This document shows positions 45,489 through 46,534 of a stretch of 64,000 nt of DNA, piece after piece. Origin of the DNA: Thermococcus gammatolerans EJ3 (lineage in GTDB: Archaea; Methanobacteriota_B; Thermococci; Thermococcales; Thermococcaceae); NCBI RefSeq assembly GCF_000022365.1, contig NC_012804.1, positions 558,001 to 622,000 on the forward strand. Reading direction: 5' to 3'. A program made the translations under genes and the position numbers. Numbering within the stretch: position 1 is the stretch's first letter; each line of letters begins with the position of its first letter. The notes beneath the pieces were generated by a model, which had not been told where the DNA came from, did no database searches, and saw only the letters and a program-made list of their open reading frames with translations.

Positions 45489-45580
45489 GTTACCATGATA
45501 ACATTTTAGTGTTTTTCTTTCTTGATTGTTATCATGCAAACCGCAAAACTTATATACGAGTTTTTTGTTATCATGATAAC
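45489..45580. promoter_or_regulatory. Three evenly spaced copies of a 14-bp palindrome around the HEPN-MNT promoter
   Basis: GTTATCATGATAAC occurs perfectly at 45567-45580 and with two or fewer changes at 45489-45502 (GTTACCATGATAAC) and 45528-45541 (GTTATCATGCAAAC). Each start is exactly 39 bases from the next. The TATA box (TATATAC, about 45551-45557) lies between copies 2 and 3, so copy 2 abuts BRE and copy 3 covers the expected transcription start. This is the geometry of an autorepressed toxin-antitoxin promoter. Confidence 0.85.
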
Positions 45581-45591
45581 GAGGGAACGGC

Positions 45592-45921
45592 ATGGTAAAC
45601 CTTGACGAACTCAAGGTCAACGCTCAGGAGTACCTTGAGGACGCTGATTATCTCTACAACAAAGGCCACTACAACTCGGCCCTCAACCTCTACTTCAAAG
45701 CCCTCGTGGCAATCTGCGACTACATAATCCTCCGCGACACAGGGAAACTCCCGAGGAATCACACTGAGCGCTTTAGGATTCTCGAAGAGAAATATCCTGA
45801 CATCTATGACATCGTGGACTTCCACTTCAACAACTACCGCAAGGCCTACCTCATGAGGGCTACAAAGGAATGGGTGGAGGTGCTGAAAAATGACGTCCAC
45901 AACCTCTACTCTCAGCTCTGA
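45592..45921 (+). CDS. HEPN domain protein, putative toxin of a HEPN-MNT pair
   Basis: 109 residues, all helical: an NAQEYLEDADYLYNKGHYNSAL start, ALVAICDYIILRD, then the family segment LPRNHTERFRILEEKYPDIYD. HEPN toxins are RNases with an Arg-x4-6-His motif; here Arg and His occur in RDTGKLPRNH with unusual spacing, so activity is uncertain. The antitoxin-like MNT gene overlaps its 3' end. A GAGGGAA ribosome binding site precedes ATG 45592, and the promoter has three operator copies. Confidence 0.85.
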   Translation: MVNLDELKVNAQEYLEDADYLYNKGHYNSALNLYFKALVAICDYIILRDTGKLPRNHTERFRILEEKYPDIYDIVDFHFNNYRKAYLMRATKEWVEVLKNDVHNLYSQL

Positions 45922-46534
45922 GCCCCTTCAATTTTTTACCCTCCAAGGAACACTCCACGAAACAGTCAAAAACTTCGTAGAGAATCATAGTGAGGTCTTC
46001 GACGTTGTCCTCTACGGTTCAACTGTCCTCGGGAAAGAGAAACCCAACGACCTCGACCTCATGATACTAACGAGGACGAAACTTCCCGCCTTGGAGCTTA
46101 GGAATCTCATCCTCGAACTCAAAAGAGAGCTCTCCAAAATACTCACAAATGCCAAACTCGACATCAGGGCCATGAGCCTTGAAGAGCTCTTCGACCCGAA
46201 CAACCTCGCAAGCTTGGGGGTCATCATAGAGGGATTTTCTCTCACAAAGAACAAATCAATGGCAGAGCTAATGAATGGGAAAGCATATGCTCTCTTCCGT
46301 TTCACCCTTGAAGGCCTTCCGCGGAAGGACAGGGTTCGCTTCCAGTACGCGCTCAAGGGCAGGGACATGAAGAGCGGCCTCCTCAAGGAGCTGAACGGTG
46401 AACAGTGGGGGGCTTGGGTAGTTGTCGTTCCAATAGAGCACACTTACCGCTTCAGGGACTTCTTGGAGCTTTGGGGTGTAAAATATGAAGCCTTCACAAT
46501 CTTAAAAGGAGCCGACTTGTTCTACAAATTTTGA
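45890..46534 (+). CDS. MNT-type nucleotidyltransferase with long C-terminal part
   Basis: 214 residues. The catalytic signature LYGSTVLGKEKPNDLDLMIL (GS-x9-DxD) and a later AKLDIRAM (third Asp) define a pol-beta-like nucleotidyltransferase. In HEPN-MNT systems the MNT protein can inactivate HEPN by adding AMP. This one has a C-terminal extension of about 100 residues (about 110-214, including KDRVRFQYALKGRDM) beyond the minimal fold of about 100 residues. The start ATG 45890, with GGAGGTG seven bases upstream, overlaps the HEPN gene by 32 bases. Confidence 0.85.
   Translation: MTSTTSTLSSEPLQFFTLQGTLHETVKNFVENHSEVFDVVLYGSTVLGKEKPNDLDLMILTRTKLPALELRNLILELKRELSKILTNAKLDIRAMSLEELFDPNNLASLGVIIEGFSLTKNKSMAELMNGKAYALFRFTLEGLPRKDRVRFQYALKGRDMKSGLLKELNGEQWGAWVVVVPIEHTYRFRDFLELWGVKYEAFTILKGADLFYKF

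Follow-up and report, generated by a model that had tools for sequence, protein, structure and literature searches.

What reads the palindromes that precede a HEPN-MNT gene pair in Thermococcus gammatolerans EJ3, and does the reader come from the pair itself? The question was addressed by computation, starting from a stretch of 64,000 nucleotides (the window), to which the following positions refer.

45489..45502, no strand: operator copy 1, GTTACCATGATAAC, a palindrome with 1 mismatch, conserved in relatives
45503..45527, no strand: spacer 1, 25 bp, containing no promoter; length conserved, sequence poorly so (45% pairwise, type I)
45528..45541, no strand: operator copy 2, GTTATCATGCAAAC, 2 mismatches, abutting the BRE
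45542-45548, + strand: BRE-like CGCAAAA, within the 25-bp spacer 2, just upstream of the TATA box
45549-45557, + strand: TATA box CTTATATAC, also within spacer 2; relatives have an equivalent TATA
45567..45580, no strand: operator copy 3, a perfect GTTATCATGATAAC, covering the transcription start predicted from the TATA only
45581 and 45592: GAGG, then the ATG of HEPN
45592..45921, + strand: HEPN, 109 aa; PF05168 below cut-off for the window member, best relative 1.4e-5
45890..46534, + strand: MNT nucleotidyltransferase, 214 aa; PF18765 3.8e-8; Polbeta/NTP_transf_2
46250..46510, + strand: MNT C-terminal domain, residues 121-207, the candidate operator-binding domain

The layout described in the first-pass annotation was reproduced in full. 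The palindromes that it placed at 45489, 45528 and 45567 depart from GTTATCATGATAAC at one, two and no positions, respectively, and its exact 39-base period was recovered as two start-to-start distances of 39 bp. Copies 2 and 3 do flank the BRE/TATA, and copy 3 overlies the predicted start as had been claimed, that start being placed from the TATA alone (TATA plus about 25). Eight matches to GTTATCATGATAAC with at most three mismatches were found in the window against 1.04 expected, a number reached in none of 100 shuffles; the three best were the operator copies, all inside 92 bp. Random 121-bp sequences matched in base composition, 200,000 in all, included none with two or more sites at two or fewer mismatches.

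The two genes downstream are arranged with HEPN first and MNT second (45592-46534), the reverse of the MNT-first order usual for MNT-HEPN pairs (PMC3710099), and their reading frames overlap by 32 nt. MNT has a conserved active site consisting of GS-x9-DxD and a third Asp (D54, D56, D91), the gap in GS-x9-DxD falling one residue short of the published GSX10DXD, and the best Foldseek matches to a model of its N-terminal domain were MntA/MNT antitoxin structures. In the HEPN alignment the RX4HXY motif was absent: the last helix reads [KR]NDVxxL, with no conserved R-x4-6-H, and the invariant H57 sits elsewhere, in NHxERF. The RX4HXY motif that marks Class I HEPN/MNT (HepT/MntA, type VII) is thus missing, and adjacent genes, a HEPN lacking the RX4H motif and a preserved MNT motif place the pair in Class II as PMC7641770 uses the term, an assignment in which the window HEPN itself falls below the Pfam cut-off and its relatives reach 1.4e-5. 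As in autoregulated toxin-antitoxin operons, the palindromes lie over the promoter and are specific to the operon. Searching a defence-system library gave weak matches only, which were unusable.

HEPN and MNT relatives were gathered from related genomes and named genome contigs. The array has been kept in almost every Thermococcales relative of the module, and in well-preserved loci it consists of two or three palindromes at the equivalent place, of which the last two enclose the TATA. The expectation that the operators would be conserved in orthologous promoters therefore held for spacing, copy number (2-4) and place around the TATA, but not for the palindrome sequence, which is clade-specific: type I is GTTATCATGATAAC, type II GTTTATCNATAAAC, type III GTTAATCNATTAAC, type IV GTAGGAATTCCTAC and type V GTTCTCATGAGAAC, each corresponding to a single clade on the MNT tree. 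Where one genome has several modules these have different operators; G068 holds MNTs of types I, III and V, and in G090 a second module with the operator GTAGTCATGACTAC exists beside one of type I. The palindromes are 76-91% identical and spacer 1 just 43-45%, whereas identity in the 40 bp flanking copy 1 on its outer side is 26-28%, the random level, so the genomic contexts of the modules are unrelated.

Of 52 neighbour intervals from Thermococcales loci, a count that leaves out two spurious long intervals, 49 had a spacer of 25 bp; the exceptions were 24 (G027), 26 (L065) and 17 bp (G095). Two further loci, L033 and L064, were missed by the scan and showed the 39-bp period by eye. In the G095 module (L086) it is spacer 2 that has been cut to 17 bp, with loss of the TATA box, and the HEPN and MNT frames are open. 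In that of G085 (L087) two palindromes are left, the TATA-bearing unit is gone and HEPN is frameshifted; here the pattern is as if one 39-bp unit had been lost by recombination among the copies. Outside Thermococcales, spacers of 25 bp were found in L072, L109, L135, L136 and L104, and one of 24 bp in L138. L072, on a Nanoarchaeota contig, has 15-bp sites (GTTATATGATATAAC) in two pairs, L109 (G115) has CTAATATNATATTAG-like sites, also in two pairs, and L104, L135 and L136 belong to the phylum of G111. As the period is 39 bp with 14-bp sites and 40 bp with 15-bp sites, the invariant is the 25-bp spacer and not the 39-bp period. This modifies the earlier description of a spacing near 3.7 helix turns, which is correct for the palindrome centres (3.71 turns) but misses the conserved quantity: facing half-sites are 32 bp, or 3.05 helical turns, apart and hence in phase, whereas the centres are not. 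The 25-bp spacer may mean that facing half-sites are bridged along a single face of the helix.

The array could be an operator and yet have merely inherited its spacing, unconstrained, from one ancestral array, and most of the loci do come from one order. We regard this as unlikely. Spacer 1 keeps its length without its sequence and with no promoter in it; the spacer is still 25 bp where the palindromes are of 15 bp and in lineages beyond this order; and the two clear departures, in G095 and G085, belong to modules that look decayed.

Of the domain-bearing loci at the greatest distance, about half (L139-L144 included) gave no array in the palindrome scan, some of them having a short upstream region. 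A recognisable MNT C-terminal domain is found with no palindrome array in the scan at L107, L108 and L140-L144, from the phylum of G111; either such MNTs use other operators or the domain does something else there. At L105 (G109:C16), palindromes GTTAAATGATTTAAC and GTTAAATCGCTTAAC in tandem units of 39-40 bp precede an ORF that keeps the MNT C-terminal domain only, the HEPN and nucleotidyltransferase part being missing.

Which protein recognises the operators was judged from the sister types II and III, whose half-sites differ (GTTTATC and GTTAATC, respectively). Comparison of 3 and 5 MNT sequences and of 3 and 3 HEPN sequences showed that HEPN is as similar between the types as within them (82% identity), with no discriminating column. 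The nucleotidyltransferase domain is 69% identical between and 75-79% within types, with 3 discriminating columns, and the MNT C-terminal domain 57% between and 73-74% within, with 12. The Fisher value for the discriminating columns (p = 5.6e-5) is only indicative, since the sequences are related by descent. Among type I sequences, which share one operator, conservation in MNT is higher in the C-terminal domain (83%) than in the rest (69%). Every array-bearing Thermococcales MNT has this extra domain of about 90 residues, and no array was seen at HEPN/MNT pairs of the same genome that lack it, nor at ten remote HEPN loci. The operator word and the domain change together, which marks the domain as the likely on/off switch. 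The first-pass annotation had left the choice between proteins of the module and a separate regulator; sequence comparison narrows this to the module's own MNT, and probably to its C-terminal domain.

Type II antitoxins commonly bind DNA as toxin-antitoxin complexes, and HEPN and MNT are co-encoded by overlapping genes, so the operators might be bound by a HEPN-MNT complex only, with HEPN making essential contacts to the DNA. This too is improbable, and HEPN as the binder was rejected, because no HEPN residue tracks the switch in operator between types II and III. Operators are also kept at loci where HEPN has been lost. In L111 (G034) nearly all of HEPN is deleted and MNT is retained with three operators, and operators and MNT likewise persist with a broken HEPN in L023, L032, L031 and L022. 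In these last four, as in L081 and L087, MNT is intact and HEPN carries a frameshift, an interruption or a truncation. This repeated breakage of HEPN, not MNT, is compatible with HEPN being the toxin and fits its being the costly partner, a caution being that some of the loci come from draft genomes.

In G036, G013 and G034, which carry modules of types II/III, the MNT gene extends into the beginning of an hsdR-like gene, part of a type I restriction system (PF04313, checked for G036 and G034); the loci are L028 (2394-3311), L030 and L111 (2441-3001), respectively. As G034 has lost HEPN and has three operators and MNT ahead of hsdR, MNT may act as a control protein for the restriction operon.

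A regulator from elsewhere in the genome was considered as well. HEPN-MNT modules are widespread and mobile, and a DNA-binding component acting in trans has been suggested for them, speculatively, by Makarova et al. 2009 (PMC2701414); clade-wise change of operators could also be expected if they shared their descent with a linked regulator at another genomic site. However, module and array occur together in unrelated contexts, operator types follow MNT clades, and one genome can carry modules with different operators. Scanning the genome by pattern and by family revealed no GTTATCATGATAAC-like sites in other promoters of G000, and a regulon beyond the module was rejected, as every other genomic match at two or fewer mismatches lay inside a long ORF. 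These results indicate a dedicated local regulator and make an outside one very unlikely. The 14-mer also occurs, perfectly or nearly so, at G000:C1:1436643 and 1861656, within CheY-like and ParA/MinD-like genes (named by eye from translations); these non-promoter occurrences are likely to be coincidental. That the palindromes are repeats with some other role (recombination sites, a mobile-element remnant or RNA hairpins) is suggested by the unit apparently deleted through recombination in G085, but is highly improbable, since the TATA comes only after copies 1 and 2, which would not be in the RNA, the place of the array relative to the TATA is fixed across operator types, and the palindrome sequence changes with one protein domain.

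Thus, this is probably the operator/promoter of an autoregulated Class II HEPN-MNT operon, with the MNT C-terminal domain acting as a sequence-specific repressor that binds several palindromes cooperatively. The domain had no Pfam match and no PDB sequence match, and so could not be assigned by Pfam or by fold to RHH, HTH, AbrB or another known DNA-binding family. Its AlphaFold model, of fair confidence (pLDDT 85), has the ferredoxin-like order b-a-b-b-a-b, and gave no significant structural match in the PDB (best Foldseek E 0.016) or among viral structures; likenesses to papillomavirus E2 and Lrp domains were weak (TM about 0.3) and discarded as unusable. No relatives of the domain were detected in viral contigs.

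We infer that the part of MNT following its nucleotidyltransferase domain is a DNA-binding domain from a family not yet described, and that C-terminal domains would pair on each 14-15 bp palindrome, placing one MNT dimer per site. Oligomers of MNT or MNT-HEPN would then bridge neighbouring palindromes 25 bp apart, cooperatively, and the occupied array would cover the BRE/TATA and the start site, in which case TBP, TFB and RNA polymerase would be blocked and the operon repressed, HEPN and MNT presumably serving as toxin and antitoxin. A bolder reading, to which we give an even chance, is that the domain is the first of a new archaeal DNA-binding family, with a ferredoxin-like fold and a specificity able to evolve, and that it recognises pairs of palindromes by a rigid 25-bp ruler (32 bp, or three helical turns, between facing half-sites) retained across archaeal phyla; a nucleotidyltransferase and a repressor would then reside in one protein, and HEPN modification would be coupled to transcription of the operon.

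In many archaea few gene modules are as common as MNT-HEPN pairs (PMC2701414). In earlier accounts neither protein has a DNA-binding domain, and the suggestion was of a third component acting in trans (PMC2701414, PMC7641770). Our results suggest, in place of the in-trans idea, that the DNA-binding component is in cis, as part of MNT. In the open-licence literature, to which the search was confined, we found no description of the operators, their fixed spacing or the C-terminal domain. With the operator, its likely reader and natural specificity variants laid out, the question of regulation is reduced to a gel-shift, and, if the proposal is true, the operator/domain variants are ready-made orthogonal repressor-operator pairs for hyperthermophiles.

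The module resembles several known systems in part. Like HepT/MntA (Class I, type VII; Shewanella SO_3166/SO_3165 and T. cleftensis CL1_0071/CL1_0070), it is a HEPN and MNT pair with a GS...DxD nucleotidyltransferase site; unlike them, its HEPN lacks RX4HXY and is encoded first, MNT second, and its MNT is of 214 aa with the extra C-terminal domain, compared with about 80-150 aa for the MNT of HepT/MntA. With type II toxin-antitoxin systems that autoregulate through multiple operators it shares several sites around a core promoter, suggesting cooperative repression, but the candidate reader domain is by Pfam not of the RHH, HTH, AbrB or PHD kind. The Class II HEPN/MNT pairs of PMC7641770 are likewise archaeal, with a HEPN lacking RX4HXY and an MNT that keeps its active-site motif; in its available part, that account does not report operators or the C-terminal domain and leaves open whether Class II is a toxin-antitoxin system. 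A precedent in regulation is the Shewanella MNT SO_3165, which binds and represses its own promoter (PMC4621449). In both cases palindromes lie near the promoter and an MNT acts on it, here as a candidate; SO_3165 uses two dissimilar palindromes and has no recognisable DNA-binding domain (PMC4621449), whereas in the module described here two to four like palindromes are set apart by a constant spacer of 25 bp, and a candidate domain is dedicated to reading them.
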